DNA of 64,000 nt from Candidatus Saccharimonadota bacterium (lineage in GTDB: Bacteria > Patescibacteriota > Saccharimonadia > Saccharimonadales > Saccharimonadaceae). The notes beneath the pieces are model-generated. The model ran no database searches. It saw only the letters and a list, made by a program, of their open reading frames with translations, and had not been told where the DNA came from. The stretch covers positions 119,322-183,321 of the forward strand of contig JAUMUO010000001.1 in the NCBI GenBank assembly GCA_030530605.1. The letters run 5' to 3'. Shown piece by piece: positions 3,154-48,975 of the stretch. Each line of letters begins with the position of its first letter. Positions within the stretch are counted from its first letter, which is position 1. The position numbers were made by a program, and so were the translations under genes.

Positions 3154-3159
3154 ATATGC

Positions 3160-3165
3160 TATAAT
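3160..3165 (+). promoter_or_regulatory. -10 element giving a leaderless glycosyltransferase mRNA
   Basis: TGCTATAAT with the hexamer at 3160-3165, only six bases before the ATG at 3172, so transcription should start at or next to the start codon. No ribosome-binding site is present. Confidence 0.6.
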
Positions 3166-3171
3166 ATCTTT

Positions 3172-4095: not shown

Positions 4096-4149
4096 ATTTT
4101 TTATACCACTTGTGCTATTATATAAGCATAAGTAAAATAGGTATTTTCT

Positions 4150-4872: not shown

Positions 4873-4885
4873 TTTTCAAAAAACC

Positions 4886-4924
4886 AAGAGTTATGAAGCA
4901 CTTTACTTCATAACTCTTTATTTT
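4886..4924 (+). terminator. Intrinsic terminator
   Basis: Perfect 13-bp stem AAGAGTTATGAAG / CTTCATAACTCTT followed by TTATTTT. The A-rich 5' flank means it may also work in reverse. Confidence 0.85.
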
Positions 4925-5022
4925 GTATAAAATACAACAAAAAATCGTAGTATGATATCCGTAAGTAGTTTGATTTGGATGGACAGCTAAAGAAAACTAC
5001 AGAAAAATAATTTGGAGATACT

Positions 5023-5670
5023 ATGTTAAAACAAGTAGTGGTCTTTGGTAATAAAACCAGCGAAGACATTATCGGTAATATGATTGAAGATAATCTTCCA
5101 GTGGAAGTTACTAAAGTAGGAAGCGAAAAAGCCAGGCAAATTATTGGCGAAACTGAATCGGCTATTAGGGAACAAACCGAGGAAGAACTTTTGCCATACA
5201 TTGGCAAAGTCGACGCTATTGTGCTTTGCGAACCAGAAATGACGCTATCAAGCATCCAATTTCTAAAGGATAAATACCCAGAGCAGGAGTTTGTTGGCTA
5301 TGGCCAAAATTTAAGTAGGGTTATAAAACAAGAACATACTGTGCGTATATTGCTCCCGCACACGGTAAGACGGATGTCCCGTTACCAAAAAATGAAATCC
5401 GAATGTTTTGGTGTAGAGATTTCTGAAGGCGAATATGATTTTGAAGAAATCCCTGGCCCAAGTTTCACGGAACGTTTTTTAGAAGGTTTCGTAAATGGCC
5501 TAATCATCATTTATACTCCGGCTCTCATTTGTCTGGAAGACCAACTAAAAGAACGCACCAAGTGGCGTGCTACTGTAGTGGATATGTGCGGTTCGCTCTT
5601 TAGGGAAACTTGTAAAGCTCTAAAATTTCGTGGCATTGATGGCGGCTTGTCTCGCGACTTAAAGGGATAA
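5023..5670 (+). CDS. Divergent Asp/Glu racemase-like protein, function uncertain
   Basis: 215 aa, soluble. The layout faintly resembles glutamate racemase (MurI): VDAIVLCEPEMT (about 65-76) sits where the family has the first catalytic Cys (ACNTA), and GLIIIYTPALICLE (about 162-175) sits where the second Cys motif (GCTHYP) is expected, but that Cys is replaced. If the relation is real, the protein should not racemise by the two-base Cys mechanism. GGAGA at 5012 serves as ribosome-binding site. It converges with the TetR gene, leaving only 15 bases between stops. Could equally be an unrelated family. Confidence 0.45.
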   Translation: MLKQVVVFGNKTSEDIIGNMIEDNLPVEVTKVGSEKARQIIGETESAIREQTEEELLPYIGKVDAIVLCEPEMTLSSIQFLKDKYPEQEFVGYGQNLSRVIKQEHTVRILLPHTVRRMSRYQKMKSECFGVEISEGEYDFEEIPGPSFTERFLEGFVNGLIIIYTPALICLEDQLKERTKWRATVVDMCGSLFRETCKALKFRGIDGGLSRDLKG

Positions 5671-5685
5671 TCTCTGTCCGTAAAG

Positions 5686-6276
5686 TTACCGTTTTTTACG
5701 AAGCTTTTCCTCCATTTCGTAAATTCGGCACTTAGAATAGAATATCACCGCGTTTATCCGTTCAGTTGATTTTTCAAAATCACAGGCGTCTCGTTCAATC
5801 CACCACTTGATTTCAAAAATTAAATAATGCTCAATTTCAGAGCAGATTCTCTGGTCAGTCTCCACGGATCTTCTGGTCTTTCTCTCTAACTTTACAAACT
5901 CTAAAATTTTTGGCTCTAGGATTCGTGCTAAATTTTCGAAAGGTTTTTCGTACTGCTGGAGAAAATTAATTACATAGTAATCATCATTTTCCTTCACAAA
6001 ACTAAAGGCTCTAACGAGCCCGGTAGTTAAAAGGCTTTCGTCTCCAAGCCTTCGTTTTAGTTTGACACTCATTTTGCGGTCCTTTGCTCGCACCACGTCG
6101 TGTACCCCCTTATAGTGTCGATAGAACGTTGGCGTGGAGACTTTTGCCACCTTACAAAGTTTTGTTACGGGCAACCTTTCAAAATGAGAATGGCTCCCGT
6201 AAAAATCATACAAAGCACTCTCAACTGCCGCCCTGGTTTTTCTACACCTTTTATCACAAGTATGCCCACTTGACAT
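5686..6276 (-). CDS. TetR-family transcriptional regulator
   Basis: 196 aa. The N-terminal HTH is clear: LPVTKLCKVAKVSTPTFYRHY (about 36-56) matches the TetR helix-turn-helix ending in the typical TFYRHYKG. The C-terminal ligand domain is divergent and has Cys near the start (HTCDKRC). An AT-rich promoter region (6277-6332) lies between it and the divergently transcribed UDP-galactopyranose mutase gene, which is therefore a possible target along with itself. Ligand unknown. Confidence 0.8.
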   Translation of the reverse strand: MSSGHTCDKRCRKTRAAVESALYDFYGSHSHFERLPVTKLCKVAKVSTPTFYRHYKGVHDVVRAKDRKMSVKLKRRLGDESLLTTGLVRAFSFVKENDDYYVINFLQQYEKPFENLARILEPKILEFVKLERKTRRSVETDQRICSEIEHYLIFEIKWWIERDACDFEKSTERINAVIFYSKCRIYEMEEKLRKKR

Positions 6277-6319
6277 AATTATATATTATAGCATAAACAG
6301 AATAAAAAGTCAATATATG

Positions 6320-6325
6320 GTATAA
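6320..6325 (+). promoter_or_regulatory. -10 element, leaderless glf mRNA
   Basis: TATAAT ends seven bases before the ATG at 6333, so the mRNA probably starts at the start codon. There is no Shine-Dalgarno sequence. Confidence 0.6.
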
Positions 6326-6332
6326 TAGCCAT

Positions 6333-7472
6333 ATGGAAATTAGAGATTATAAATATATCGTGGTGGGGGCAGGTTTATTTGGTGCGACAGTCGCCGAGCA
6401 TCTTGCTAGAAAAAATAAAGTACTTGTCATTGAGAAACGCGACCACATTGCTGGTAACATTTACTCTCATTTTGATGAAGAAACCGGTATTGAAGTTCAC
6501 GACTATGGTTCGCACATTTTTCACACAGAATTCCCAGCGGTCTATGATTACCTCACTAAATTTACGGAATTTAATAATTACATTCATACTGTAGACACTC
6601 GTCATAATGGCAAGCTCTATCCCATGCCGATTAATCTTAATACGATTAATTTTCTCTATGGTACTAATTTCGGCCCAGAAGAAGCTGAAAAATTTATCAA
6701 AAGCGAAGCTGAAAAAACCGGCATCAAGGACCCCAAAAATTTTGAAGAAAAAGGCCTCTCTCTAGTTGGCGAAAAACTTTACACTGCCTTCCTCAAAAAC
6801 TATACTAGGAAACAATGGAACACTGATCCTAAAAATCTTGATGCGGCTATTCTTTCCAGAATACCAGTTCGCTATTCTACGGACAATCGCTATTTTATCA
6901 CTGCCAAATATCAAGGTATTCCAAAAGATGGTTATACCAAAATGGTAGAGAATATGTTGAGTTCTGAAAACATCACCACTAAATTAAATACTACCTTCAA
7001 AGATATTGAAAACCAAGTCAGCGATACTGCCACTATTATTTACACTGGCCAAGTTGACGAGCTTTTAGATTATAAATTCGGCCCGCTCCCATATCGCTCT
7101 CTCAGATTTGAAGAAAAGCGTGTTGAAAATTCAGACCAAAAAGAGGCCGTCATCAACGAGGCTGACCTAGATGTCCCTTACACCCGCACTCATGATTATA
7201 AATACTACCAAATTCACCATCCAGAGATCATAAACCAGCCTGTCTCTATCCTTTGTCACGAATATCCAGCCGATTTTGAGCAGGGCGGGGAAGCATATTA
7301 CCCAGTAAATAATGAAGAATCAGAAGCTCTATACCAGAAATATCTAGAGGAAGTTAAAAACACTTATAAGAACCTTATCCTCGGTGGTCGTCTCGGCGCT
7401 TACCTTTATTGGGATATGGATCTCTGCGTCAAGAACGCCCTAGACTTGTGCGAAAAAATGGGCTATAATTAA
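6333..7472 (+). CDS. glf: UDP-galactopyranose mutase
   Basis: 379 aa, the usual family length. FAD-binding Rossmann motif VVGAGLFGA at 10-18, acidic end of the second strand (VIEKRDHIAGN), the family signature DYGSHIFHT (about 62-70), and C-terminal GGRLGAYLYWDMD for FAD/substrate binding. Interconverts UDP-galactopyranose and UDP-galactofuranose, supplying Galf for surface glycans. GalE nearby makes the UDP-galactose. Followed after eight bases by a GtrA protein, probably one transcript. Confidence 0.95.
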   Translation: MEIRDYKYIVVGAGLFGATVAEHLARKNKVLVIEKRDHIAGNIYSHFDEETGIEVHDYGSHIFHTEFPAVYDYLTKFTEFNNYIHTVDTRHNGKLYPMPINLNTINFLYGTNFGPEEAEKFIKSEAEKTGIKDPKNFEEKGLSLVGEKLYTAFLKNYTRKQWNTDPKNLDAAILSRIPVRYSTDNRYFITAKYQGIPKDGYTKMVENMLSSENITTKLNTTFKDIENQVSDTATIIYTGQVDELLDYKFGPLPYRSLRFEEKRVENSDQKEAVINEADLDVPYTRTHDYKYYQIHHPEIINQPVSILCHEYPADFEQGGEAYYPVNNEESEALYQKYLEEVKNTYKNLILGGRLGAYLYWDMDLCVKNALDLCEKMGYN

Positions 7473-7480
7473 GCATAATT

Positions 7481-7891
7481 ATGTTAAAGAAACTCTGGGC
7501 TCTCTACAAAGAGTACGAAGAAATTATCAACTACGTCATCACTGGCGCTTTTGGCACAGTAGTCAATGTTGGTACCTTCACGCTTGCCAGGGCACTGAAC
7601 TTCGACATTACAATCAGCAACGTTGCTGCTTGGGTTATCACCATTATCTTCGTTTATATCTCTAGCAAATTCTTTGTCTTTAAAACCGCTAACAAAACTA
7701 AGAGAGAATCTACTAAAGAATTTATCACATTTGTGCTCGCGCGCCTTGCTACTCTTGGCATTGAAATTCTACTCTTAAATCTCACCATTGAAGCAATGCA
7801 TATGAATGAATTGGTTGCTAAAACCGCTGCGCAAGTAGTTGTAATTATTTTGAACTATATCTTGAGCAAACTATTTGTCTTCACCAAATAG
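7481..7891 (+). CDS. GtrA-family membrane protein
   Basis: 136 aa with four predicted membrane helices. INYVITGAFGTVVNVGTF and the paired VYISSKFFVFK / NYILSKLFVFTK motifs are typical of GtrA proteins. Known members help flip polyprenyl-phosphate-linked sugars across the membrane. Sits directly after glf, which fits a Galf-lipid or related carrier. The 3' end overlaps the convergent galE gene by 37 bases. Confidence 0.88.
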   Translation: MLKKLWALYKEYEEIINYVITGAFGTVVNVGTFTLARALNFDITISNVAAWVITIIFVYISSKFFVFKTANKTKRESTKEFITFVLARLATLGIEILLLNLTIEAMHMNELVAKTAAQVVVIILNYILSKLFVFTK

Positions 7892-8865
7892 TTGATTGTA
7901 TCGCGCATCGCATCAGCTACGGTCAGCTCGGTTTTCCATTCCAAATCCCGCATCGCCTTGTCTGGTACTGCGCAAAGTTCTGGCAAGTCACCCGGACGTC
8001 GCGGTGCAATTTTATAAGGGAGTTTCTTTTTGCTTGCTTCTTCAAACGCAGCAATCATTTCTAGCACTGAAGTCCCGCGTCCTGTACCAAGATTATAAAC
8101 CGAGCAACCTGCGCTCATATGCGTAAGCGCCGCCAGGTGACCCTTAGCGAGATCCACCACATGGATATAATCTCTGATACAAGTCCCATCCGGCGTAGGA
8201 TAATCATCACCATAAACCGAAAGCTCTGGAATTTCACCAGTTGCTACCTTCATTACAATTGGCATCAAATTATTTGGACGGCCATTTGGGTCCTCGCCAA
8301 TTAAGCCAGATGGATGTGCACCTACCGGGTTGAAATAACGAAGTAGCGTTACTGAAAGCCCAGAATCTGCCACGCACGCATCGCTTAAAATCTGCTCGAT
8401 CATAAACTTAGTCTGTCCATACGGGTTAGTAATTCCACGCCCGGTCTCCATAGTTTCATCAAGTCGCGCCACACCCTGGTCGCCATACACTGTTGCTGAA
8501 GACGAGAAAATCAGGGAATTACAACCAGTTTCTTTCATTGCTTTAAGTAAATTTAGCGTCCCTACGATATTATTTTCATAATAGAACAATGGTTTTTCTA
8601 CACTTTCCGCCACCGCTTTAAGCCCGGCAAAATGAATTACTGTATCAAATCCCCGCGAAAGCACCTCAAGCGTTGCAGGATAATCCAATAAATCTACTTT
8701 ATGAAATTCTGGCCTAACCCCAGTGAGCGCCTGAATTTTATCCAGGACACTTTCCTTAGAATTATAGAGATTGTCTAAAATCTCCACTTTATAACCATTG
8801 TTAATTAGCTCTACCACAGTGTGCGAGCCAATATACCCCGTTCCTCCAGTAACTAAAATCTTCAT
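7855..8865 (-). CDS. galE: UDP-glucose 4-epimerase
   Basis: 336 aa, normal length. NAD-binding TGGTGYIG at 6-13, catalytic SSS (121-123) and YxxxK (Y149 to K153, NPYGQTK), plus RYFNPVGAHPSG and NLGTGRGTSVLEM, all characteristic. Converts UDP-glucose and UDP-galactose, feeding UDP-galactose to glf. Transcribed divergently from the sugar transferase at 8905 out of a 39-bp intergenic region with one leaderless promoter facing each way. Confidence 0.95.
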   Translation of the reverse strand: MKILVTGGTGYIGSHTVVELINNGYKVEILDNLYNSKESVLDKIQALTGVRPEFHKVDLLDYPATLEVLSRGFDTVIHFAGLKAVAESVEKPLFYYENNIVGTLNLLKAMKETGCNSLIFSSSATVYGDQGVARLDETMETGRGITNPYGQTKFMIEQILSDACVADSGLSVTLLRYFNPVGAHPSGLIGEDPNGRPNNLMPIVMKVATGEIPELSVYGDDYPTPDGTCIRDYIHVVDLAKGHLAALTHMSAGCSVYNLGTGRGTSVLEMIAAFEEASKKKLPYKIAPRRPGDLPELCAVPDKAMRDLEWKTELTVADAMRDTINYLVKTNSLLKI

Positions 8866-8904
8866 ACCCCTATTATAACATATAAAATATGATATAATAT
8901 AGGT
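8866..8904. promoter_or_regulatory. Back-to-back leaderless promoters
   Basis: Only 39 bases separate two divergent starts. On + the TATAAT at 8893-8898 is six bases from ATG 8905; on - the TATAAT (complement of 8873-8878) is also about seven bases from the galE ATG. The -35 of each must overlap the other unit, so the two transcripts may compete for polymerase. Confidence 0.6.
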
Positions 8905-10329
8905 ATGAAAAAGTACCCTGGTTTTGTCTATGTACTTTGTTTGATGCTCGGCGACGCACTCGCAATTATGGCCTCTTTTCTGTTTGCTTATTTTGTCCGC
9001 ATCAACCTTGACTCGCGCCCATTCTATTTTGAAAAGACCGCTTGGGATATTTTGTTCACTGGGCTTATTATCATCCCGGCTTGGTGGGTGATTTTGGGTT
9101 TACTCGGTCTTTATAGCCGGCGAGTCTATAACAAGCGCGCCCATTTCCCGGAAATTATCCGCTCCTTTATCGCCTCTGTTCTCGGCACGATGGTGCTGAT
9201 TGCCTATCAGTTTTTCTTCAAAACTTCGCTCTTTGCTAGCCGCGCAGTAGCACTTTGGTCGTTGGTTTTTTGCTTTATTACGCTCGTAGCAATTCGTCTA
9301 ATTATTCGTCAAATTCGTCGTTCTGCTAGTGCTCGCTTTACCACCGGTCTCAAAGTCATCGTCATCGGTAACAACAAAAATACCGAGCGTCTGATTGAGC
9401 ACTTTGTTGATTTTCCAGAGGATGGTTTCAGACTAAAGGGAATCGTCGCCGGCAATAGCTTCGTCCCAGAGGAGCTCAGAAAATATCAGTTTACTTCTCT
9501 CCAAACCGCCCTCGAAAAAACCGACCCAGACATTATCTTCCAGACTGATGAATATAAAGCTGAGTATATCTACACAGAGTCTATTAAGCACCATATATTA
9601 TATTATTTTGTGCCTACTGAATCTAGCCTTTCTTCGCACATCGGCGACATTGAGCTCATTGGCGATACGCCGGCTATGCTTGTTAAGGTTACCCCTCTAA
9701 TTGGTGCCGCTCGCATCGGCAAACGTATTATGGATATTGTCTTTGGCCTCATTGCTACCATCATTGCTCTTATCCCAATGATTATCCTTTGGCTCATCTT
9801 GAAATTCTCCGATTTCAAACACTCCCCGATTTATTCTGAATACCGCCTCAGTCGTTACAATAAAAAAGTCAAAATTTATAAATTCCGTTCTATGAAGCCA
9901 GAGTTTTCTGGGCTTTCCCCCGAAGAAGCTTTTGAGAAAATGGGCAAGCCGGAGCTAATCAAAAAATACCGCGCGGGAGGGGATTACATTAAAAATGACC
10001 CACGCGTTACTAAAATTGGCCATTTCCTTCGCCGCACCTCCCTAGATGAACTCCCGCAATTAATCAATGTTCTAAAAGGCGACATTTCGCTCGTCGGTCC
10101 TCGCGCACTTGTACCTGGGGAATTGCGCGACTATGGCGATCGCTCGCTCTTACTTTCCGTTAAATCCGGCCTTACTGGCCTTGCCCAAGTTTCGGGCCGC
10201 CGCGATATTTCCTTTGAAGAACGCCGCGCCCTAGACCTTTACTATATCCAAAACTGGTCCTTCTGGCTCGACCTCCAAATTCTCTTCAGAACCGTCGCCG
10301 TAGTCCTAACCGGCAGGGGCGCTAAGTGA
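8905..10329 (+). CDS. Polyprenyl-phosphate sugar-1-phosphate transferase (glycan initiating enzyme)
   Basis: 474 aa. About four N-terminal membrane helices, a central CoA-binding-like cytoplasmic domain (about 150-265) and the C-terminal bacterial sugar-transferase domain: [11 protein letters not shown] helix, [29 protein letters not shown] and [10 protein letters not shown] motifs. Same architecture as WcaJ/WbaP-like enzymes, which load the first sugar-phosphate onto undecaprenyl phosphate. It starts the operon with a GT4 transferase and an O-antigen ligase/polymerase, each overlapping the next. Sugar specificity unknown. Confidence 0.93.
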
Positions 10330-11462
10330 AGGTGGCTTTAGTCTGTGATTGGTTGGTAAACGTCGGTGGCGCCGAACGTGTGCTTTTAGAGCTCCACAAG
10401 ATGTTTCCGGACGCCCCTATCTATACTTCAAAATATAATGAGAGGGGAATTGATTGGTTCAAAGATGCCGAGGTAAAAACCGGTTACCTTCAACATTTCC
10501 CAAACTGCACTAGAAAAATTATTGGCCCTCTGCGCTCGCGTTGGTTTAGAAAATTAGACCTTACAAATTATGATTTGGTAATTTCTGTCACTGGCGCCGA
10601 AGCCAAAGGAGTTTACACAGGCGGTGGAAAACAAACCGAACACAAAACCGAACACATTTGCTTTTGTCATGTCCCCACCCAATACTACTGGGGGCTCTAC
10701 GATGATTATATGAAAGACCCGGGCTTTGGCTTTCTAAATCCACTCGCTCGCCTGGGCCTTAAAATTTTCGTAAAACCAATGCGAAAGCGCGACCTCGCGG
10801 CTTCAAAGCGTCCAGATTATTATGTCACTATTTCAAAATATGCCAAAGAGGAAATTAAGCGCTTTTATAAGAGGGAAGCAACCATTATTTATCCCCCAGT
10901 TGATACTAAAACATTTTTGCGTAAAAAGTCAAATAGGGAAACGGTGGAAAACTATTTTATAACAACCTCGCGATTTGTCAACTGGAAACGGCTAGACCTC
11001 GCCATAGAAGCTTGTATTAAAACCAACCAAAAACTCATCCTGATTGGTGAAGGTCCAGAAGAAAAAAAGTTAAAGCGTCTTGCTAAAAATCATAAAAATA
11101 TTATTTTCCTACCGAAAATGGATCAGAAAGGTCTTAAAAAATATCTTGAAAATGCTGCGGCCTATCTTTTCCCAAGTAAAGAGCCCTTTGGTATCGCTCC
11201 GGTTGAGGCTCTTGCCGCCGGTTGTCCAGTTATTGCCTACAAAGAAGGTGGCGCGCTTGATTATATTAAAGACAAAGAAAACGGCCTGTTCTTTAACGAG
11301 CAAACCACTAATTCTCTGGCGGCCGCCATTGAAGAGTTCCTCAAATTAAAAGAAGACAAGAAAAGTTTCCTTGCGAAAAAAATCTCCGACTCTGCGCTTC
11401 CCTTTGATACTGAGATTTTCAAAGCTAAAATGAAGGAGTTTATAGATGAAAAAATCGGTTAG
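10326..11462 (+). CDS. Family 4 glycosyltransferase
   Basis: 378 aa. GTG start overlaps the previous stop by four bases (GTGA), indicating translational coupling. The N-terminal domain begins ALVCDWLVNVGGAERVL; the C-terminal GT-B domain has the GT4 signature (FPSKEPFGIAPVEALAAG, about 282-299, containing the E-x7-E pair). Members use nucleotide sugars to extend lipid-linked glycans. Probably adds a sugar to the product of the preceding transferase. Confidence 0.92.
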   Translation: MKVALVCDWLVNVGGAERVLLELHKMFPDAPIYTSKYNERGIDWFKDAEVKTGYLQHFPNCTRKIIGPLRSRWFRKLDLTNYDLVISVTGAEAKGVYTGGGKQTEHKTEHICFCHVPTQYYWGLYDDYMKDPGFGFLNPLARLGLKIFVKPMRKRDLAASKRPDYYVTISKYAKEEIKRFYKREATIIYPPVDTKTFLRKKSNRETVENYFITTSRFVNWKRLDLAIEACIKTNQKLILIGEGPEEKKLKRLAKNHKNIIFLPKMDQKGLKKYLENAAAYLFPSKEPFGIAPVEALAAGCPVIAYKEGGALDYIKDKENGLFFNEQTTNSLAAAIEEFLKLKEDKKSFLAKKISDSALPFDTEIFKAKMKEFIDEKIG

Positions 11463-17040: not shown

Positions 17041-17265
17041 ATGGCAAATTCGAAGCATGTTGGCTTTAGAGCCCCACTAAATAAAGAAGATACGCCTGAA
17101 AAAACTCTTGGGTGTAGAGCTGCTAACCCTGATATATGTAAGTTCAATGGCACAGATTTTTGTGCCTTTTGTAGAGCAGACGGAATGTGTACGCAACCAC
17201 CAAAGACGTGGTCAAAGCAATATGAAAAGCTAAAGGCGGAAGAGAGCGAGAAAAACAATGGCTGA
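17041..17265 (+). CDS. Small Cys-rich protein upstream of restriction enzyme
   Basis: 74 aa with five Cys in a spacing that could bind zinc (GCRAANPDICKF, DFCAFCRADGMC). Its stop lies inside the next gene (eight-base overlap), so the two are translationally coupled. It is not an obvious HTH-type C (controller) protein. The neighbour also begins with a Cys pair. It could be an accessory domain or zinc-ribbon partner of the nuclease; function unknown. Confidence 0.6.
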   Translation: MANSKHVGFRAPLNKEDTPEKTLGCRAANPDICKFNGTDFCAFCRADGMCTQPPKTWSKQYEKLKAEESEKNNG

Positions 17266-18142
17266 TGTTGACCAATGTACGAGATATGCCGAAGAGGGGC
17301 TTTGTGGAAATGCTAGGAGAAGTGCTTTAAGAATTGCAACTATCCAAGATAGCTTTAGAAACATTATATTTCGGGGCAAAAATGCTACTCAAATTGAAAA
17401 AATGTTAGACAAGTTTTCGAGAACGATACGAGAATCTGTGTCGGCAAAATATGGCTTTATTTGTGATTCACTAAAGGCGTCATCAAACGACAACAAGGAT
17501 GGTGCTGATTTATATTGTATAAACAGTAGGACGAAAGAGCGCATTATAATCGAGGTCAAATTTGGGAGTTATACCGACAAGGCGGCTGGCATGGGAAGTT
17601 TTTCGCAGATTTTTGGGACAGACATATTTACAAAAACTTTGTCAACGGATACTCGTAAACAATGGATAACGCTTACCGTCAATGAGTACCCAGATTTATC
17701 AAAGCAAGCATACAGGTCATCTGCAGCTTTAAATCATGCGGTAGATATTTTTAACGCTGAAATGTCGGCTAAAAACTATACTCTAACCGAATCCGAACAA
17801 TCTTTTATGGAAGATTACCTACTTAATAACTCTGGTAGTTATGAGAGTAAGGCTGATAACTATATGCGATTTGAAACCGACAAAAACGGTTCCAAAATTG
17901 TAGAAGCAACACCAGTTGTAAAGGGGCTTGGCGAGTGGGTAGTGAGCAAAGTTAATCCGATTAATATAAAAGACGATAAATCTCGAGTAAACGTGTTCGT
18001 GGCCAATAATGAGACTGGCATAGAAATAAAATTCGTCCTTAATAACAAAAATGATTTCAAGGTAAAAGGAACGAATATCAAGATTCGCTCAAAGTACATG
18101 GTAAACTCTCCAAGCTGGAATGTTTGGATTAGAAAGAAATAA
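17258..18142 (+). CDS. Probable type II restriction endonuclease, PD-(D/E)xK fold
   Basis: 294 aa, soluble. DGADLYCINSRT followed by IIIEVKFGS (about 86-110) gives the D ... ExK catalytic arrangement of PD-(D/E)xK nucleases. The rest is not recognisable, as expected for restriction enzymes. The adjacent, convergent DNA adenine methyltransferase strongly supports the assignment. Recognition site unknown. Low-GC, accessory-looking context beside a tRNA integration hotspot suggests horizontal gain. Confidence 0.7.
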   Translation: MADVDQCTRYAEEGLCGNARRSALRIATIQDSFRNIIFRGKNATQIEKMLDKFSRTIRESVSAKYGFICDSLKASSNDNKDGADLYCINSRTKERIIIEVKFGSYTDKAAGMGSFSQIFGTDIFTKTLSTDTRKQWITLTVNEYPDLSKQAYRSSAALNHAVDIFNAEMSAKNYTLTESEQSFMEDYLLNNSGSYESKADNYMRFETDKNGSKIVEATPVVKGLGEWVVSKVNPINIKDDKSRVNVFVANNETGIEIKFVLNNKNDFKVKGTNIKIRSKYMVNSPSWNVWIRKK

Positions 18143-18193
18143 TAACAATATAGCCCTATTATAGTTGAACTGACTAGCAATCTAACAAGGCAC

Positions 18194-19120
18194 CTAAAGG
18201 AAGAAGAGTGGCTTATCGCCAAACATAGCCTCGTATTCCTTAATCACATCGGCTTTGCCAAAACCAGGAATTGAAATATTCTTTTTTGAAAGCTTGTCGT
18301 AATCGATTTGATTTAAGCGTTCCAAAACTTCTGGTGATTTTGCCTTAAAGAAAATCCACTGGGTGTGATGATCCATTTTATCAGGGTCGGTCTCCTTTAA
18401 TGTGTAATCCTTATAGCCTTGTCTAGGTATAGCAAAGTCCCACCCGTAAAGCTCTTTGTCGAAATACTTCTCAGCTTCTCTAGTGTTATTGTATTGCCAC
18501 ATATCAAAATCTTTGTGTTTAGTGATTGGGGAACTTCTCAACCTTAGGTCTTCGCCAAAATTGCGAGTAGTCCAAATCTGAAAACAACAACGAACGACAT
18601 ATGATTTGCCGTTAAATACAAAGGCGTCCGGAATTAGGGTTTTTTCAAAGACCAACCTTGCTTGTTTGACAAGTTTGTTCTGGGCAGAGTGCTTTTGAAA
18701 TTGAAGCGGCAAGATAAAAGCTACTGTTTCTGTATAATCTAATGCCTTATTAATAAAAGCTGCCGCCATACGAGCTCTGCGACCAAATGGAGGATTCCCA
18801 ATAACAACTACCGATTGCTTGTCTGGCAAATCGTCAGAAATATCGTCATTTAGAAAATCGTGTTTAATTACCTTTTTGTCATTTGGGTCAATATCGCAAG
18901 CATAATAGTCATTATAATTCTCTTTATCGAGTGCTCGTAGGAACGCTCCGCCACCAGCCGATGGCTCTAAGAAGCAGACCTTGCTCAAGTCATAGCCCGA
19001 ATTATTTTTAAGGGTATCTATCAAATCAGCAAGACACTCTTCCGCAATAGAGTCTTTAGTATAAAACTGGTCAAAATCTTTTTCTTGGTTTTTTTCAACA
19101 GAAGTAGAATCATCAGCCAT
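18194..19120 (-). CDS. DNA adenine methyltransferase of a restriction-modification system
   Basis: 308 aa. SAM-binding motif FLEPSAGGGAFLRAL (about 47-61) and catalytic NPPFGR (about 108-113), the N6-adenine or N4-cytosine type; the NPPF form is the common adenine type. The remainder carries the target-recognition part. Converges on the putative nuclease, ending 51 bases from its stop. GAGG lies upstream as ribosome-binding site, with TATAAT (complement of 19149-19154) as promoter. Protects host DNA from the paired nuclease. Confidence 0.85.
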   Translation of the reverse strand: MADDSTSVEKNQEKDFDQFYTKDSIAEECLADLIDTLKNNSGYDLSKVCFLEPSAGGGAFLRALDKENYNDYYACDIDPNDKKVIKHDFLNDDISDDLPDKQSVVVIGNPPFGRRARMAAAFINKALDYTETVAFILPLQFQKHSAQNKLVKQARLVFEKTLIPDAFVFNGKSYVVRCCFQIWTTRNFGEDLRLRSSPITKHKDFDMWQYNNTREAEKYFDKELYGWDFAIPRQGYKDYTLKETDPDKMDHHTQWIFFKAKSPEVLERLNQIDYDKLSKKNISIPGFGKADVIKEYEAMFGDKPLFFL

Positions 19121-19430: not shown

Positions 19431-19462
19431 TGGTGGGGCTCAATTAGCCAGGTTTTAACATT
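19431..19462. repeat. Attachment-site-like repeat, copy 1 (left border of array)
   Basis: Core TGGTGGGGC resembles the end of the tRNA gene at 21116 (complement of GCCCCCACCA). The right arm (AATTAGCCAGG, TTAACA at 19455-19460, TTGTATAG) matches copy 2 at the same offset of 24 bases from the core start. No left-arm TTAACAG boxes are found to its left, as expected for the outer border. Confidence 0.65.
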
Positions 19463-19509
19463 GTATAGGGAGAATATTTGACTTTTTGTCGGAAAAAACA
19501 TAAAAACTA

Positions 19510-19538
19510 TTGACTTTTTTTCTAAACTGTGCTATAAT
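19510..19538 (+). promoter_or_regulatory. Strong consensus promoter of the long RNA
   Basis: TTGACT (19510-19515), 17-base spacer, extended TGC-TATAAT (19533-19538). No open reading frame of useful length follows. Confidence 0.8.
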
Positions 19539-19544
19539 TAAAGC

Positions 19545-20098
19545 ATACTCCGAGTTATGGGGGACGAAGAGTCGCGTAACTTAAAAGAATGATTCTGATA
19601 CGTTTGTTTGTAAGAGGCGTTTTCTGATAATCATGCACTGATTATTGAAACTCGATACGATAACCTCAGTTGATCGTACGGCATAGCCGGATGGAATCCT
19701 GAAATCTATGCGTAGTCGAAAAGAAAACAAGTCTTAAGGCTGAACCGTAGCTCGTTAGACGAGTGCAACTTCTTATTGCTCCCGTCATAGCGGGAAATAT
19801 TAGAAGTCGTCTAAGCGGGAATGCTTGGCAAAACGAGAGGAATCTTTAGTGGTCTTAAACCATATTCTTTGTCGGTAGTGGTACTTTAAGTGAAAAAACA
19901 TTTTTGGATGAACGTATGACTATGATCATATCATCAGAAGAAAATGCGAAGATGTTTTATACTTGCCTATACAATCATTCAGATTGCAAAAGAGCTTTGC
20001 AGAGTAGTACTGCTCAATCTGGAAAAAAATAGAAAAAGATGAAATATCGTTTTCACCGCCCGAAAGGGTTCTCAGCCGCCAGTATACTGGCGGCATTT
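19545..20098 (+). ncRNA. Long structured non-coding RNA, about 550 nt, unassigned family
   Basis: A strong promoter (19510-19538) and a perfect GCCGCCAG-TATA-CTGGCGGC terminator (20075-20094) bracket about 550 bases without coding potential. Many helices are visible: GATAATCA/TGATTATT (19626-19647), CTTCT/AGAAG and TAGACGA/TCGTCTA with an inner CCCG/CGGG (19756-19815), TGGT/ACCA (19849-19862), and a three-way junction AGATT/AATCT enclosing GCAAA/TTTGC and GCAG/CTGC (19980-20020), plus CCC-GAAA-GGG (20059-20068). It lacks the acceptor pairing of tmRNA and RNase P signatures. Size and mobile context recall ROOL/GOLLD-type RNAs, but identity is unproven. Confidence 0.7.
20075..20098 (+). terminator. 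Intrinsic terminator of the long RNA
   Basis: Perfect 8-bp GC-rich stem with TATA loop followed by ATTTT. Confidence 0.85.
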
Positions 20099-20134
20099 TC
20101 TATGCGTAAATATTTTGACCAAATTGTTGGGGAT

Positions 20135-20310
20135 TTAACAGCTGAAATTATAGAGGTAAATTACAATTTTCGACACGTTTTTGTTATAAAAACGGCATAA
20201 AAATAGCCCTCTATTTTTCCGAGGGATTTAACAGATATTTACAGATTGCGGAATAGATAAAAATGATTTTATAAACCGTTTGGTGGGGGCGAATTGTTCA
20301 GGCATTAACA
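20135..20310. repeat. Attachment-site-like repeat, copy 2 (junction between cassettes)
   Basis: Core TGGTGGGGGC at 20281-20290. Left-arm TTAACAG boxes at 20135-20141 and 20228-20234 (146 and 53 bases before the core) match the boxes before the tRNA-end copy (149 and 54). Right-arm TTAACA at 20305-20310 is 24 bases into the site, as in copy 1. This is the arrangement expected for core and arm sites of a tyrosine recombinase. Confidence 0.7.
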
Positions 20311-20380
20311 CTGTATAGAGAAAACATGCAAGTAAGATTAAACTGCGACTATGATATAATGAAATAGAGGTTATTAGATA

Positions 20381-20926
20381 ATGATAAGAAAGGTATTGAC
20401 TACTCCTGATAAAAAATTACGCGACAAGAGCCGGGATCTGAAATCATCAGAGATTCAATCTAAAAAGATTGAGGATTTAGTAAATGATATTTATGAAACA
20501 ATAAAATCTGGGGAGTATGGTGTAGGCATGAGTGCTATACAGATTGGTGAGCCAGTCGCTATCAGTGTAGTTATGATACGCCCTACGCCGAATCGTCCGA
20601 ATTTAGAAAATTTTACTAAGGTTTATTATAACGCAAAGATTGAGAACGTATACGGCGAAAAAGAACCTATGTGGGAGGGTTGCTGTAGTGTATTGGACGA
20701 TGAGTCTAACCCAATTTACGCAAAAGTGCCACGATATAAAAGAATATGCGTAAGGTATTTAGATAGAGTCGGCAAAGAACATGAAGATGTAGTTGATGGT
20801 TTTTTGGCTCATGTTTTACAACATGAAATTGATCATATTAATGGCATCATATTTACAGATTTAGTTCCAAAGTCGGAAATCGTATCTCAGGATGAATATC
20901 GGCGTATATTAGGCATAAAAAAATAA
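20381..20926 (+). CDS. def: Peptide deformylase on a mobile cassette
   Basis: 181 aa with all three family motifs: GVGMSAIQIG (47-56, consensus GxGxAAxQxG), EGCCS (99-103, metal ligand C101) and HEIDH (148-152, two His ligands and catalytic Glu). Removes the formyl group from N-terminal Met of new proteins. It is the only gene of a cassette of about 835 bp between two attachment-like sites. The promoter TATAAT at 20352 precedes it. It may be an extra copy in addition to a core def gene elsewhere, as seen in some phages. Confidence 0.88.
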   Translation: MIRKVLTTPDKKLRDKSRDLKSSEIQSKKIEDLVNDIYETIKSGEYGVGMSAIQIGEPVAISVVMIRPTPNRPNLENFTKVYYNAKIENVYGEKEPMWEGCCSVLDDESNPIYAKVPRYKRICVRYLDRVGKEHEDVVDGFLAHVLQHEIDHINGIIFTDLVPKSEIVSQDEYRRILGIKK

Positions 20927-20966
20927 TATATATTGAGATTTAAAGCGATCAAAGTTGTTTAGGGTA

Positions 20967-21125
20967 TTAACAGATGAATTTATAGGGGTAAAAATGTGCT
21001 TCCAAAGCACATTTTTCGTGCAAAATCAATGCAAAATAGCATACTAGGAATTAGAGGGTACTTAACAGAATTTTACTACTAAAAAATCGGCGAAAAAGCC
21101 GACTTAGATAAAACCTGGTGGGGGC
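20967..21125. repeat. Attachment-site-like repeat, copy 3, at the tRNA 3' end
   Basis: Core TGGTGGGGGC at 21116-21125 is the 3' end of the tRNA gene (CCA included) on the minus strand. TTAACAG boxes at 20967-20973 and 21062-21068 precede it with the same spacing as in copy 2. Short hairpins lie between the boxes (GTGCTTCC-AAAGCAC; GTCGGC repeats at 21088-21102). Confidence 0.7.
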
Positions 21126-21191
21126 AGCTGGGTTCGAACCAGCGACCAATCGGTTATGAGCCGACTGCTCTAACCACTGAGCTATGCCCCC
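21116..21191 (-). tRNA. tRNA-Ile2 (CAT anticodon, probable lysidine-modified)
   Basis: 76 nt with encoded CCA. Acceptor GGGGGCA/TGCCCCC, anticodon loop CTCATAA (anticodon CAT), T-loop TTCGAAC. The AGTGGTTAGAGCAG and GGTCGCTGGTTC blocks resemble bacterial tRNA-Ile2 more than elongator tRNA-Met; lysidine modification would be needed. Its 3' end is the target of the cassette array. Confidence 0.9.
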
Positions 21192-21715: not shown

Positions 21716-22336
21716 ATGAAGGAAGGTGCGGTAAAGAAAGATTATACCGTCCCTGCCCTGTTTATCACGGCAGTGACTCTGGTTTTTGTATTTTTAGTTG
21801 TCAATTTGATTTTCGGCGGTAAAAAATATCCATCTATAAAAGATGGCGCCACTACTTCTCAGGTTGAAGAATATGCTTACAAACTTCTTGAGAAAGATGA
21901 TGGTACTAATAATCTCGGGTACAACGAAGCCGTTGCTTATTATGTTTCCCAAATCGCCGCCTCAAATGACAAAGAACAGAAATTCAATCTTATGCTTGAC
22001 TTCGCGATTTTCTATGGCAAAACCGGCGATCCATCTTCTGGCCTCCAGGTTCTCGGCGATGTAGATGAAAACATCCCACCTGATGCAAAGTACTATCTTT
22101 ATACGACTTACATTTATCTTTATGAGCGCCTAAATGATGACGCAATGGCTACCGAATATCGCCAAAAAATTGTTGATGAGAAAATTGCTGATTATTTCGC
22201 CGGACTTGATAACGGTACTATCGCGCCGGAAGATTTCAAAACGGAGGAGCCTGTCGAGGAAGAACCTGAAGTAGAACCCGAGAAAGAGTCTGAGCCCGTT
22301 GTCCTTGAAAGTCTTTTTAACGTCGAGGGTCTTTGA
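21716..22336 (+). CDS. Single-span membrane protein with TPR-like domain, pilin operon
   Basis: 206 aa. TM segment at about 13-35, helical repeat-like region (about 50-165: NEAVAYYVSQIAAS, FAIFYGKTGDPSSGLQVL, AKYYLYTTYIYLYERL), then a Glu/Pro/Val-rich tail. Its stop overlaps the next start (TGATG type). Location at the head of the pilin operon suggests a scaffold role like PilN/PilO or a Tgl/PilF-type helper, but this is inference. Confidence 0.65.
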   Translation: MKEGAVKKDYTVPALFITAVTLVFVFLVVNLIFGGKKYPSIKDGATTSQVEEYAYKLLEKDDGTNNLGYNEAVAYYVSQIAASNDKEQKFNLMLDFAIFYGKTGDPSSGLQVLGDVDENIPPDAKYYLYTTYIYLYERLNDDAMATEYRQKIVDEKIADYFAGLDNGTIAPEDFKTEEPVEEEPEVEPEKESEPVVLESLFNVEGL

Positions 22337-23463
22337 TGGAAAAAGTGAAATCTGGTTTCACCCTTCTTGAAGTAGTACTAGTTGTGGCGATTTCGACCTT
22401 GCTCTTCATGAGTGTCGTTATTGGTATTGGTAGCCGTATCGCCACTGGCCGCTATGAAACTGCCAGCACCGAAATCGCCGACTACCTCCGCGATGTTTAT
22501 ACGGTTGCTCTGAACACTGAAAATGCCAGGGAAGGGATTGAGGGTGCCAGGGAATATTGCACGATTTACGGCGCTACGAATTTGAGCGAAACTGCCACTC
22601 CTAAAACCGGCAAGCAACTTTTTACAAATAACACTGTCAACAGTAGTAATGTGACGGCGGAGGACGTCGAGCCTGGTCGTACTAACTGTGCGATTTACGG
22701 GAAAGCGCTTTATTTCGGTGCCAAAGATGGCAAGGTCCACGTTTTCGATGTGGTAGGTGATGTTGTGACTAACGACCTTAAAAAAATGATAGTCGACGGT
22801 AAAGAAGTAGAAACCACCGAGCTAAAACAAATTGAAAATAAGGAGGATATTTTAGATCAGCTTGAAGAAGTTCGTGCCGATATTTTTGCCGCTATTCCGG
22901 ATTTGAATAATAACATCAACAACTTCAATGCAACTATGGCATGCAAACTTTCCCCGGCCGCTGCGCAAACTACTTATGAACCAAACTGGGGAGCGCTTTT
23001 TAAAACCGCCAATTTTGGGGGTAATACCTCTAGAAATTCCGGCGATGATTTTGTAGGCATGGTAATGATTGTCCGCTCCCCAGCCTCTGGGAATGTCCAC
23101 ACCTTCTTCTATGAAAGCCCTAGCTCAACTAGTGCTGATGACTGGCAATTTATTGAAGATTTTGATGATAACAGCAGTAACAACGTCGGGTGTGGTGAGC
23201 TTAGTAAAGATTCATTAGAGTATAAAGACCTAGTTAAAAAGTATTCCCCAGTTCAATTGATTAGAGACCAAAAACAAAGAGAAAAAGATAATCCTGATAC
23301 TGTCCCAGAAAATACTGGTTTTTGTATCGGCTCGGACGATTTCTATGTTTCAATTTCTAATCTGAAAAAGTATGTCGAATTTATTCCTGGTGGTCAAAAC
23401 GCCTCGGCCGTGAAACTAAATGAAAGTACTGACAAAGAGGGAGGAAACCCATGTCACGGCTAA
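22336..23463 (+). CDS. Type IV pilin-like protein
   Basis: 375 aa from the ATG overlapping the previous stop. Class III prepilin signal: SGFTLLEVVLVVAIS with cleavage expected after Gly and Glu at +5, followed by a hydrophobic helix. The long C-terminal domain (about 330 residues) has several Cys (EYCTIYG, TNCAIYG, MACKLS, VGCGEL) that could form disulfides. Much larger than a typical major pilin (about 150 aa), so probably a minor or tip pilin. Confidence 0.85.
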   Translation: MEKVKSGFTLLEVVLVVAISTLLFMSVVIGIGSRIATGRYETASTEIADYLRDVYTVALNTENAREGIEGAREYCTIYGATNLSETATPKTGKQLFTNNTVNSSNVTAEDVEPGRTNCAIYGKALYFGAKDGKVHVFDVVGDVVTNDLKKMIVDGKEVETTELKQIENKEDILDQLEEVRADIFAAIPDLNNNINNFNATMACKLSPAAAQTTYEPNWGALFKTANFGGNTSRNSGDDFVGMVMIVRSPASGNVHTFFYESPSSTSADDWQFIEDFDDNSSNNVGCGELSKDSLEYKDLVKKYSPVQLIRDQKQREKDNPDTVPENTGFCIGSDDFYVSISNLKKYVEFIPGGQNASAVKLNESTDKEGGNPCHG

Positions 23464-24206
23464 AGTCTAAAAAAGGGGATACTTTGATAGAAGTGGTGCT
23501 TTCCTTTGTGATGTTTAGCTTGGTCGCAACAATTTCGCTTGCCGTTATGCACGCCGGCATCTCCGGGGCGGAAGCATCTATTGAGCTTACCCTTGCCCGT
23601 GTTGAAATCGATGCCCAATCCGAGGCTATGCGCTTCATCCAAGAGTCTTACTCTAATGACCGTGCGTACCCGAATCTTTGGCGTGCCATCACTAATACAG
23701 CACTAAATGAAGATTATGGAAAAATCCCAGAACTTTCTAGAAACAACTGCAGTAAGCTTTACGATGATTTCAGCGTCGACCCGACTATAGTGGACTTCAA
23801 CGCCTTTGTGCTTAACTCTCGCCAGATTAACGATGGAGTTGATCCGGTCAGGGATGATTATTATGGCAATACTTTTATTAGTACTAAGGAACCAGGGCAG
23901 ACGGATAAGTTCTCTGAATCTTCTCTAAGTCCAAGAATAATTTATACCACCAAAAGTAGTGTTTCCGAGGACGAAGAAACCACAGATGATAACCTGATGT
24001 CAGACGAGTCATATATTTACATCTACCGCGCTGAAGGGATTTACGATTTTCTAGTCAAAGATACCAAAGAATCTGAGCCTAATAAAAAACTCAGCCACTA
24101 TGATTTCTACGTTTATACCTGCTGGCTTCCGCCCGGTGCCGAACACCCCACTACCATCGGCACAGTCACGCGGCTTTATAACCCGGAGTACTTAAATGCG
24201 CAGTAA
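23451..24206 (+). CDS. Type IV pilin-like protein (PilV/GspI class)
   Basis: 251 aa; starts 13 bases inside the previous gene. Prepilin signal KKGDTLIEVVLSFVMFSL: Gly cleavage site, Glu at +5, but Asp instead of Phe at +1, an unusual variant. Cys pair (NNCSKL, YTCWLP). Probable minor pilin in the same assembly as its neighbours. Confidence 0.8.
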   Translation: MSRLKSKKGDTLIEVVLSFVMFSLVATISLAVMHAGISGAEASIELTLARVEIDAQSEAMRFIQESYSNDRAYPNLWRAITNTALNEDYGKIPELSRNNCSKLYDDFSVDPTIVDFNAFVLNSRQINDGVDPVRDDYYGNTFISTKEPGQTDKFSESSLSPRIIYTTKSSVSEDEETTDDNLMSDESYIYIYRAEGIYDFLVKDTKESEPNKKLSHYDFYVYTCWLPPGAEHPTTIGTVTRLYNPEYLNAQ

Positions 24207-25089
24207 GTCCGGCTTTACAATTCTAGAAACTGCCCTCGCCATGGCTTTCATCTCCTTCTTGATGCTTGCCATCGGTTTTGCAGTAATCCAGATCTCTAAC
24301 ATTTATCAAAAGGGGATCACTATTAAAGTCCTCAATAACAATGGTCGCGAACTCGTGGATGAATTCTCTCGTACTATCCTTGCTAGTAAATACGACAAAG
24401 TTGAAGATAGTGAAGACTCGCACTTTGACTATACCTTTACTGAGGTTAGAGAAGAATTATACGGCGTCGGTACAAGAGGAGAAAACGATGGTACAGGTGA
24501 GGAGAAATTACAGCTTCATGGTGCCTTTTGCCTCGGGAACTACAGTTATATTTGGAATACTGGCTATGCCTTGGATCTTCCTGATTCCGGGGGTGATTCT
24601 ACCCAGATTCCCGTTGATGGCGGGCAAAAAGAATATAGCACCAAAAAAGCTTATCTTATAGTTGGTGAAGATGATCCTAATACTCCCGAAAATGAAACCG
24701 AAACTAAAATCAATTTTCGGCTTGCTCGAGTGCCCGACTCTGGGCGTGAAGTTTGCCGCAGCAACGCCAAAAATAAGGAAGATAATAAGCCGAACGAATA
24801 TGTCGTCACTAAAACCAAAGCGAATAATTACGTCGAAATCCTTTCTGAATCTGAGAACCAATTAGTACTTTACGATTTGACCGTCTTTGAACCGATTTAT
24901 CATCCTGGCACCGGCCATGCCCTCTACTCTGCTAGTTTCATTCTTGGTACCGCCGATGGCGGCATCGACATCACGGTCCCGGGTAACTTCTGTACTGATA
25001 AACCAGAAAATCTAAAAACCGACTTTAATTACTGCTCGATCAATAAATTTAATTTCGCCGCTCGCGCGACTGGAGGACTTGCGATATGA
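24196..25089 (+). CDS. Type IV pilin-like protein (PilW/GspJ class)
   Basis: 297 aa; overlaps the previous gene by 11 bases. Prepilin signal KSGFTILETALAMAFIS, then a hydrophobic helix and a Cys-containing C-terminal domain (GAFCLGN, EVCRSN, GNFCTD, FNYCSI). Order of small pilins before a PilX-like protein matches minor pilin operons of type IV pili. Confidence 0.83.
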   Translation: MRSKSGFTILETALAMAFISFLMLAIGFAVIQISNIYQKGITIKVLNNNGRELVDEFSRTILASKYDKVEDSEDSHFDYTFTEVREELYGVGTRGENDGTGEEKLQLHGAFCLGNYSYIWNTGYALDLPDSGGDSTQIPVDGGQKEYSTKKAYLIVGEDDPNTPENETETKINFRLARVPDSGREVCRSNAKNKEDNKPNEYVVTKTKANNYVEILSESENQLVLYDLTVFEPIYHPGTGHALYSASFILGTADGGIDITVPGNFCTDKPENLKTDFNYCSINKFNFAARATGGLAI

Positions 25090-26417
25090 AAACTAAAAAA
25101 GGTATGGCTTCACTTTATCTTGTAGCTTTTACAACGCTGCTGCTCGGCATCGTTACAATGAGTTTTGCCAGGGTGATGATTAGCGAGAAAAGAGAAGCTT
25201 CGAACAGCGATCTTTCTCAGTCCGCTTTTGACTCTGCCCTCGCCGGGATTGAAGATGCTAAGACGGCAATTATCATGTACGAGATCTGCTTAAATAAGAC
25301 CGACGATGATTCGGTCGGTAGTAATAATGTAAAATGTGGTGATGTCAAAACATGGATGACTAATAGTTTTAAAACAGGCTACTGTGATGCAGTTAAAAAG
25401 ATTTTGAATAATGATCCAGGTGCCACTGGAGAAGTTGAAATCTCGGAGAAGCTCAATCAGGCCTACACATGCGTCCCTATCGCTAATGATGCCCCGACTT
25501 ACCGTTCAGTTCTAAATGAAGATACTCGTTCCCGCGTCATTCCCGCCAAAATCGAGAAAGCTGCAGACGGAAGTAGTCAATACGATAAAGTTGTCGGTAT
25601 TGAACTCCAATGGTTTACACCAGAATCTAATGCGGATGCTCAAGAGAATGTAAGATATATGATTGCTGATGCTACCGCCGCCAATCCTATCCCGCTATTG
25701 TCTAAGGAAGCCGCAATGGATAATATCGACGGTAAAGCCGCACCGATCCTAACTTTCGAACTTTTCCAGACCGATAGCAGTTTCACTATGGCCGAGCTTG
25801 ATCTAAACAATGAGAATAACACTGGCACCGACCATGCTATGATTATGCTTTACCCTAATGATACTAAAGCCAATGGCGAAAAAGGCACCTTCGTTTCCGC
25901 CCAAAATTTGTTAGATGCTTCTAACAAAAGCAATCAAGCCGCCCTTAACGCCTCTCTTAATTATGGCGATAGCGTCGTCCCGAAGATAGTTTCTTGCGGC
26001 TATAGGAATAGTGGTGAAGCCCGTTGCCGTGCTACCATCCAGTTCCCGGACCCTTATAACGGCGGGACTCGTGCTGAGCAGACTTTCCTGTTCCGCGTTT
26101 CGCTTCCGTATGGTTCCCCTCAGACCGATTTTAGTATTAAACCATGTTTGGAAATAACTGGTGAGGAATGCACTAAGTATGCTAATTTCACCGGGGCTCA
26201 ATATATCGTCGATTCCACCGGTCGTGCCAGTACACTCTATCGCCGTATTATCGCCCGTATTGAAACCGCACCGAAATTCATCTTCCCAGAGTACGCTATC
26301 CAGGTCTCCGGTAATAATTCCACCGTCGAAAAGAATTTCTGGGTCACTGAAAATTGTTGGTCCACTGATGGCAAGGGTAATTCCACCACTTGCGCAAACA
26401 ACGGAGATACAAACTAG
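25086..26417 (+). CDS. PilX/GspK-like minor pilin-type protein
   Basis: 443 aa; ATGA overlap with the previous gene. N-terminus MKTKKGMASLYLVAFTTLLLGI resembles PilX-type proteins that keep a Gly before the helix but lack the +5 Glu, followed by AFDSALAGIEDAKTAI typical of the helix continuation. The C-terminal domain is large with several Cys. GspK-like proteins lack the +5 Glu and cap the pseudopilus tip; the same may apply here. Confidence 0.75.
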   Translation: MKTKKGMASLYLVAFTTLLLGIVTMSFARVMISEKREASNSDLSQSAFDSALAGIEDAKTAIIMYEICLNKTDDDSVGSNNVKCGDVKTWMTNSFKTGYCDAVKKILNNDPGATGEVEISEKLNQAYTCVPIANDAPTYRSVLNEDTRSRVIPAKIEKAADGSSQYDKVVGIELQWFTPESNADAQENVRYMIADATAANPIPLLSKEAAMDNIDGKAAPILTFELFQTDSSFTMAELDLNNENNTGTDHAMIMLYPNDTKANGEKGTFVSAQNLLDASNKSNQAALNASLNYGDSVVPKIVSCGYRNSGEARCRATIQFPDPYNGGTRAEQTFLFRVSLPYGSPQTDFSIKPCLEITGEECTKYANFTGAQYIVDSTGRASTLYRRIIARIETAPKFIFPEYAIQVSGNNSTVEKNFWVTENCWSTDGKGNSTTCANNGDTN

Positions 26418-48898: not shown

Positions 48899-48975
48899 GC
48901 ACCCTTAGCTCAGTGGATTAGAGCGTCTGTCTTCGGAACAGAAGGTCGTGGGTTCGAATCCCTCAGGGTGTACCA
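48899..48975 (+). tRNA. tRNA-Arg (TCG anticodon), integration target
   Basis: 77 nt with encoded CCA. Acceptor GCACCCT/AGGGTGT, anticodon loop CTTCGGA (anticodon TCG, reads CGA), T-loop TTCGAAT. The serine recombinase gene on the minus strand runs into it and ends inside the D-arm. Confidence 0.93.

Follow-up and report, generated by a model that had tools for sequence, protein, structure and literature searches.

The 3' ends of tRNA genes in Saccharibacteria appear to serve as docking sites for mobile single-gene cassettes, which carry an att site with arm-type boxes and would be moved by a trans-acting recombinase. We put the probability of this reading at roughly 80%. Saccharibacteria are tiny bacteria that live on other bacteria, and how their very small genomes gain genes is poorly understood. 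The argument is carried by comparison, which provides the cassette borders, the transfer between tRNAs and between species, the 6-bp core, the arrays, the coherent att types, and cassettes free of recombinase genes. Cassette-bearing genomes in this comparison are mostly of ruminant gut origin.

The array described here lies in a window of 64,000 nucleotides, the whole stretch of DNA that was analysed, and consists of 2 cassettes stacked at one tRNA gene (Table 1). An initial annotation, made from the sequence, had placed 3 cores, 4 TTAACAG boxes, and 2 TTAACA boxes here, and all of their positions and spacings proved correct. The 2 cassettes it had sized at about 850 and 835 bp are exact units (19431-20280 and 20281-21115) whose ends match the end profiles. 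The proposed cores were located correctly, but the element common to all cassette sites is the 6 bp TGGTGG and not 10 bp, and core 1 matches only the first 8 bases. The anchoring gene was named tRNA-Ile2, and its CAU anticodon and sequence resemblance indicate that it probably is one, although ARAGORN labels it tRNA-Met.

Table 1. Features of the cassette array, in window coordinates.
Feature	Position	Strand	Basis or remark
tRNA gene, anticodon CAU	21116..21191	minus	ARAGORN and Rfam; 3' CCACCA end (TGGTGG on the + strand) is the putative integration target
Cassette 1, 850 bp, att type B, predicted structured non-coding RNA gene	19431..20280	+	whole unit recurs elsewhere
Cassette 2, 835 bp, att type A, peptide deformylase gene	20281..21115	+	end profiles match both borders
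Core TGGTGG, distal junction	19431..19436	+	sequence; crossover region deduced from junction comparison
Core TGGTGG, internal junction; attP layout together with flanking ends	20281..20286	+	sequence and junction comparison
Core TGGTGG, tRNA junction	21116..21121	+	sequence and junction comparison
Cassette 1 left end, type B: GGCTCAATTAGCCAGGTTTTAACA	19431..19470	+	left-end profile
Cassette 2 left end, type A: GGGCGAATTGTTCAGGCATTAACA	20281..20320	+	left-end profile
Cassette 1 right end, two TTAACAG boxes, terminus TTATAAACCGTT, type B	20121..20280	+	right-end model R1, E=1.6e-24 (window sequence itself part of the model)
Cassette 2 right end, two TTAACAG boxes, terminus TTAGATAAAACC, type A	20955..21115	+	right-end model R1, E=9.8e-37 (window sequence itself part of the model)
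Arm-type box TTAACAG, 146 bases before core 2	20135..20141	+	
Arm-type box TTAACAG, 53 bases before core 2	20228..20234	+	
Arm-type box TTAACAG, 149 bases before core 3	20967..20973	+	
Arm-type box TTAACAG, 54 bases before core 3	21062..21068	+	
Left-arm box TTAACA, 24 bases after core 1	19455..19460	+	sequence
Left-arm box TTAACA, 24 bases after core 2	20305..20310	+	sequence
RNA gene promoter TTGACT-17-TATAAT	19510..19538	+	sequence; conserved in homologues
Predicted structured non-coding RNA, ~555 nt, with terminal intrinsic-terminator-like hairpin at 20075-20099	19545..20099	+	
Peptide deformylase ORF, 181 aa	20381..20926	+	Pfam PF01327, E=3e-37
Hairpin and T-run in cassette 2 right end, terminator-like for the tRNA transcript, supplied by the cassette	21081..21102	minus	sequence

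TTAACAG by itself occurs in the window at chance level (11 seen against 10.8 expected). The full arrangement, box-N-box-N-TGGTGG, has 2 matches in the whole 678-kb genome, both of them in the window array, and a reversed-pattern control has none; the paired boxes are thus not scattered through the genome. With the right-end profile, a second array was found in the same genome, with 2 more right ends at tRNA-Val(UAC), including that of a 711-bp Nudix cassette.

Several other features of the window deserve mention in their own right. The island to the left of the array (15.17-19.43 kb, 4.3 kb that are absent in G059) is not claimed to be a further cassette, since no TGGTGG border was found at 15.17 kb. 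Within it, at 17258-19120, a type II DNA methyltransferase (18197-19120, PADLOC E=1e-67) faces a 294-aa ORF that may be its restriction enzyme. Downstream of a DivIC-like gene, a cluster of prepilin-like genes (22333-26417; N-termini GFTLLEVVLV, GDTLIEVVLS, and GFTILETALA) would fit type IV pilus or DNA uptake functions. A large serine recombinase gene with a resolvase domain (50095-50532, minus strand) near a tRNA-Arg (48899-48975) is a second, unrelated integrative element.

Same-genus tRNA(CAU) loci have the same right end beside the tRNA with other genes behind it, and some of these sites are empty. The right-end model R1, a sequence-only model, was built from 14 right ends. It finds right ends in 130 of 174 same-genus genomes, with up to nine per genome, and in 3 of the 61 genera sampled in the family. 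The left-end motif, sought in one genome per species across 84,980 species, occurs in 105 stretches, and among the matches listed all records are Saccharibacteria, mostly from ruminant gut, except for one "uncultured bacterium." Cassette content differs between genomes, a comparison that the initial annotation had proposed.

We collected 123 distinct cassettes of 595 to 3001 bp (median 1000). Exactly one ORF of at least 80 aa is present in 109 of them, and the main ORF is directed toward the tRNA in 96 of 121, with a median distance of 104 bp from the core to its start. In 73 of the 123 cassettes (12 expected) a TATAAT is located close to the left end, at a distance of 36-115 bp from the core. 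Terminator-like hairpins in the right end are found on the tRNA's strand in 97/123 (12 in shuffles) and on the gene's strand in 44/123 (4 in shuffles). Every unit has the same orientation relative to the tRNA, and the largest arrays hold eight cassettes. These shared ends, mostly single genes, and arrays of up to eight bear out the integron-like logic first suspected from 2 units. The central proposal of the initial annotation is also supported, namely mini-cassettes that lack an integrase, have att sites of core-and-arm type, and are stacked beside a tRNA. The arrays of about eight cassettes (L337, 1-17000, and L332, 1-16000) belong to a different genus of the same family, where they adjoin tRNA-Ala and tRNA(CAU). 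In distal array members the left-end profile often finds no recognisable left end. In one array (L099, oriented 2790-10427), 7.6 kb separate a left end from the following right end; this interval holds defence-like genes and a truncated serine recombinase and may have arisen by insertion of a large element.

Evidence for movement comes from whole units that recur in new surroundings. Full-length copies of the 850-bp cassette 1, 87-90% identical to it, are found at a tRNA-Val (L290) and a tRNA-Leu (L292) and also in L289, with unrelated flanks. A 705-bp Nudix cassette is found in copies 93-95% identical at tRNA-Val (L094), tRNA-Ile2 (L099), and tRNA-Phe (L126), again with unrelated flanks. The lack of a clean empty site at the tRNA 3' end had been named in advance as grounds against the cassette model, and such sites were found: in G059 and G033 the neighbouring gene is followed directly by tRNA-Ile2, while in G039 a cassette sits exactly at TGGTGG. 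We infer from these sequences that whole units have moved between tRNA genes and between species, the comparisons being between species and not within a strain.

The ends of the cassettes are asymmetric. The left end is short, TGGTGG-N4-5-AATT-N3-CAGG-N2-TTAACA, and the right end spans ~160 bp, contains two TTAACAG boxes, and abuts TGGTGG, the reverse complement of the CCACCA at the tRNA 3' end. The core is TGGTGG at nearly all junctions compared. The bases that follow it are the tRNA's own at tRNA junctions, whereas at internal junctions they are those of a cassette left end (GG[GC]N-N-AATT...CAGG..TTAACA), which suggests that exchange occurs within these 6 bp. Only this TGGTGG is common to the different sites, and this points to site-specific recombination. 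The core is shared with the tRNA end and direct arm-type repeats lie on the element side, as in tRNA-type tyrosine-recombinase att sites. TTAACA boxes on both sides of a cassette share one direction, and the ends lack inverted repeats. RNAalifold on 14 right ends recovered no conserved RNA fold that could be an analogue of attC (5 pairs, no compensatory change).

TGGTGG is present at 79 of 81 junctions between a right end and a tRNA, and 78 of the 161 distinct tRNAs in these loci end in this way. The target tRNAs are Met/Ile2 (25), Phe, Val (three anticodons), Ile (two), Leu, and Ala (two), and attB shows no conserved sequence beyond TGGTGG and general tRNA features, a point that weighs against the main reading. 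By sequence, then, the site appears to be any tRNA ending in CCACCA; the anchor of the window array resembles tRNA-Ile2, but docking is not specific to that tRNA.

Cassettes fall into 2 att types. Type A has a GAATT-type left end and an ...AAAATC-like right end, and type B has other left ends, mostly CCAGGTTTTAACA, with right ends that are ...ACCGTT/ACCTGAA-like. In 110 of the 123 cassettes both ends are of the same type (odds ratio 68, p=2e-18). The p-value is indicative only, because the types were defined after the sequences had been viewed and cassettes related to each other do not count as fully independent. This agreement within one cassette supports the cassette as the moving unit. The 2 types can be interleaved within one array (L094), and the window array consists of a B followed by an A.

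Cargo is varied. Among 118 main ORFs there are 10 Nudix proteins, 6 methyltransferases, at least 4 GNAT proteins, and 3 of peptidase S51, together with 2 each of deformylase, LysE, serine hydrolase, and DHH, and others. In 17 of the 118 the ORFs have a common N-terminal membrane anchor (GLKIATAIAC...; MEQN...GLKIATAIACIVAVCGIGFGVYG) and variable C-terminal parts (e.g., L065, L069, L107, and L127); these are possibly variable surface proteins. The cargo matches listed include no recombinase, capsid, or terminase family, and no packaging genes beyond a Nudix cross-match to a portal model.

Cassette 1 has no ORF of 60 aa or more and is predicted to be a structured RNA gene, which suggests that cassettes can carry RNA genes. 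Seven homologues were aligned, giving a predicted structure of 191 pairs. Changes on both sides were found in 27 pairs, compared with 10.0 +- 2.2 in shuffles (0 of 500 reach 27), and the folding z is -3.5. In the alignment, 96% of cells are paired versus 38-45% in a slid control, which is partly biased because the structure was derived from the same alignment. The cassette matches no Rfam family. Homologues of the RNA are located at L288-L293, and the copy in G059 (L291) is near a tRNA-Gln without recognisable cassette ends.

The array loci scanned contain no recombinase-like ORF except one host Xer gene that is nearby by chance, and the genome of the window has no PF00589 match in an assembly 95.7% complete. 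Nearly all other genomes have one Xer-like protein of ~312 aa, which starts at the core-binding domain and lacks an arm-binding domain. Among 82 genomes at least 95% complete, the number of PF00589 proteins is uncorrelated with the number of right ends (Spearman -0.01, n=82), and right ends are present in 28 of the 41 with at most one such protein. In G108 and G100 (96% complete, 4 right ends each) the single PF00589 protein is Xer-like and serine recombinases are absent. The one intact tyrosine recombinase of G264 (99% complete, with 7 right ends) is likewise Xer-like and is accompanied by a fragment and by one serine recombinase. A serine recombinase as the mover was rejected, PF00239 being absent from the cassette-bearing G034, G100, G103, G108, and G152. 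The absence of a recombinase from the cassettes, combined with carriers that have only a Xer-like enzyme, suggests that the enzyme acts in trans. With no linked integrase, and no serine recombinase in some carriers, the candidates are a Xer-like enzyme or a helper outside the assemblies, and since these are draft assemblies a helper could be unbinned.

A two-domain, arm-binding integrase of a phage, plasmid, or conjugative element could move the cassettes, which would make them true satellites of a helper, and we consider this a serious possibility at slightly under even odds. The att layout, in which the core lies between a pair of arm boxes and a single one, resembles the sites of lambda-type integrases and favours such an enzyme. 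The 2 att types suggest 2 enzymes, and many genomes have extra integrases. The initial annotation had spoken of minimal satellites moved in trans, and the cassettes do lack an integrase, but no helper phage with matching sites was found. Exact left-end patterns have 0 matches in IMG/VR, where a loose pattern gave chance matches only, and phage and plasmid records contain no matching sites. The proposed tyrosine recombinase with a matching att site was not recovered either, as none of ~38 loci around non-Xer tyrosine recombinases has matching ends. A TTAACAG...TGGTGG beside a broken integrase (L279) lies within coding sequence and was taken as chance.

The host Xer-like enzyme could instead move the cassettes itself, with the right end as an accessory sequence, so that they would be parasites of chromosome-dimer resolution like dif modules. 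Genomes with only Xer favour this: the enzyme is present in nearly all genomes, it is the sole tyrosine recombinase found in G108 and G100 and the intact one in G264, and G108 and G100 have no serine recombinase. The crossover region has the same length, 6 bp, as that of pdif sites (PMC13141974). However, the flanks of TGGTGG are not dif-like half-sites, a search for dif near xer recognised nothing shared, proteins of ~312 aa have no space for an arm-binding domain, and genomes with Xer yet without cassettes are common. We regard it as rather unlikely.

The remaining alternatives concern the type of movement itself. A trans-acting transposase that leaves TGGTGG as a 6-bp target duplication would produce X-TGGTGG-element-TGGTGG-tRNA, identical in appearance by sequence alone, but ends that are not inverted repeats, TTAACA boxes with the same direction on both sides, the constant orientation to the tRNA, and a target that is nearly always TGGTGG make it very improbable. 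A shade less credible still is that cassettes recombine homologously through their conserved ends once DNA has been taken up naturally, and that no site-specific enzyme takes part. Saccharibacteria are naturally transformable (PMC10633639) and the ends within one att type are similar enough, but where a cassette has moved to a different tRNA gene the junctions have just 6 bp in common, a single array can have A and B types interleaved, and first insertion at an empty tRNA is seen without flanking homology. Least probable of all is that a popular integration site has collected separate prophages or islands, of which the units are what decay has left. This would suit the unrecognisable distal left ends and the common use of tRNA ends by islands but is largely refuted by the intact recurrence of whole units at different tRNAs. 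Against it also stand 123 cassettes of the same compact size and layout, mostly with one gene and with no recombinase, capsid, or terminase among the matches listed.

We return to cassettes moved by site-specific recombination, for which we infer a circular form, tyrosine chemistry, supply in trans, excision, and array growth by repeated integration. A cassette would circulate as a small circle whose att site comprises the ~160-bp right end with two TTAACAG boxes, TGGTGG, and the ~30-bp left end with one TTAACA. Recombination between this att site and the TGGTGG (CCACCA) that closes the 3' end of a tRNA gene would be carried out by an enzyme provided in trans, most likely a tyrosine recombinase. 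The tRNA would stay intact with the cassette beside it, its gene usually directed toward the tRNA. Repeated integration would stack cassettes into arrays, and recombination between adjacent cores could free one again. Cassettes would bring their own promoter, and the right end would provide terminators, including one for the tRNA. Natural DNA uptake is a plausible route for cassettes between cells.

If most of the species sampled in one genus share such a cassette system, it would be a main channel of gene flow. The variable genes (Nudix hydrolases, methyltransferases, anchored variable proteins, deformylase, and a new RNA) would then have known locations, and a recombination site accepting any CCACCA-ending tRNA would allow docking broadly. 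Experiments now have a defined target in the missing enzyme. No earlier description of such a cassette system was found in the searched literature, subscription papers excluded.

Among known systems, integron cassettes are similar in forming arrays of short, mostly one-gene units with the same orientation, shared recombination ends, and highly varied cargo (Nudix, GNAT, methyltransferases, and hydrolases). In contrast to integrons, there is no IntI or linked integrase in the array loci, the genome of the window being free of PF00589, and many tRNA ends take the place of an attI platform. The sites have arm-like boxes and crossover in a 6-bp TGGTGG in place of a foldable attC, and many Saccharibacteria cassettes have their own promoter. 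The dif/pdif modules of Acinetobacter plasmids, moved by XerCD in trans, are likewise small, recombinase-free gene modules with a 6-bp crossover, several of them adjacent. A pdif site measures 28 bp, its XerC and XerD half-sites separated by a 6-bp spacer, and such sites alternate in orientation (PMC13141974). The site described here, however, is ~200 bp, asymmetric, constant in orientation, and at chromosomal tRNA genes, and its TGGTGG is flanked by TTATATAAAATC and GGGCGAATTG, which are not dif-like and contain no recognisable XerC/XerD half-sites.

CIME/IME, PICI, and tycheposons resemble the cassettes in integration at tRNA 3' ends, tandem accretion, and a possible helper in trans. Those elements carry many genes and mostly have an integrase or are ICE-derived, whereas the cassettes are ~1 kb with one gene, no integrase was found in any of them, and a single type of site is used at about ten tRNA anticodon classes. 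SEs are also integrative elements of the tyrosine-recombinase type with defined ends; they encode intA, tfp, intB, and srap, have a median size of 15.7 kb, and are found in Gammaproteobacteria (PMC10214605). Judged by sequence, the cassettes have the sites that tRNA-integrating tyrosine-recombinase elements would be expected to have, but are cut down to one gene and lack the enzyme. We lean slightly toward viewing them as a third natural system for the capture of gene cassettes beside integrons and Xer modules, in which tRNA 3' ends would be distributed docking sites for cassettes of one gene or one RNA, with two att specificities and a recombinase encoded away from every array, possibly the host Xer.
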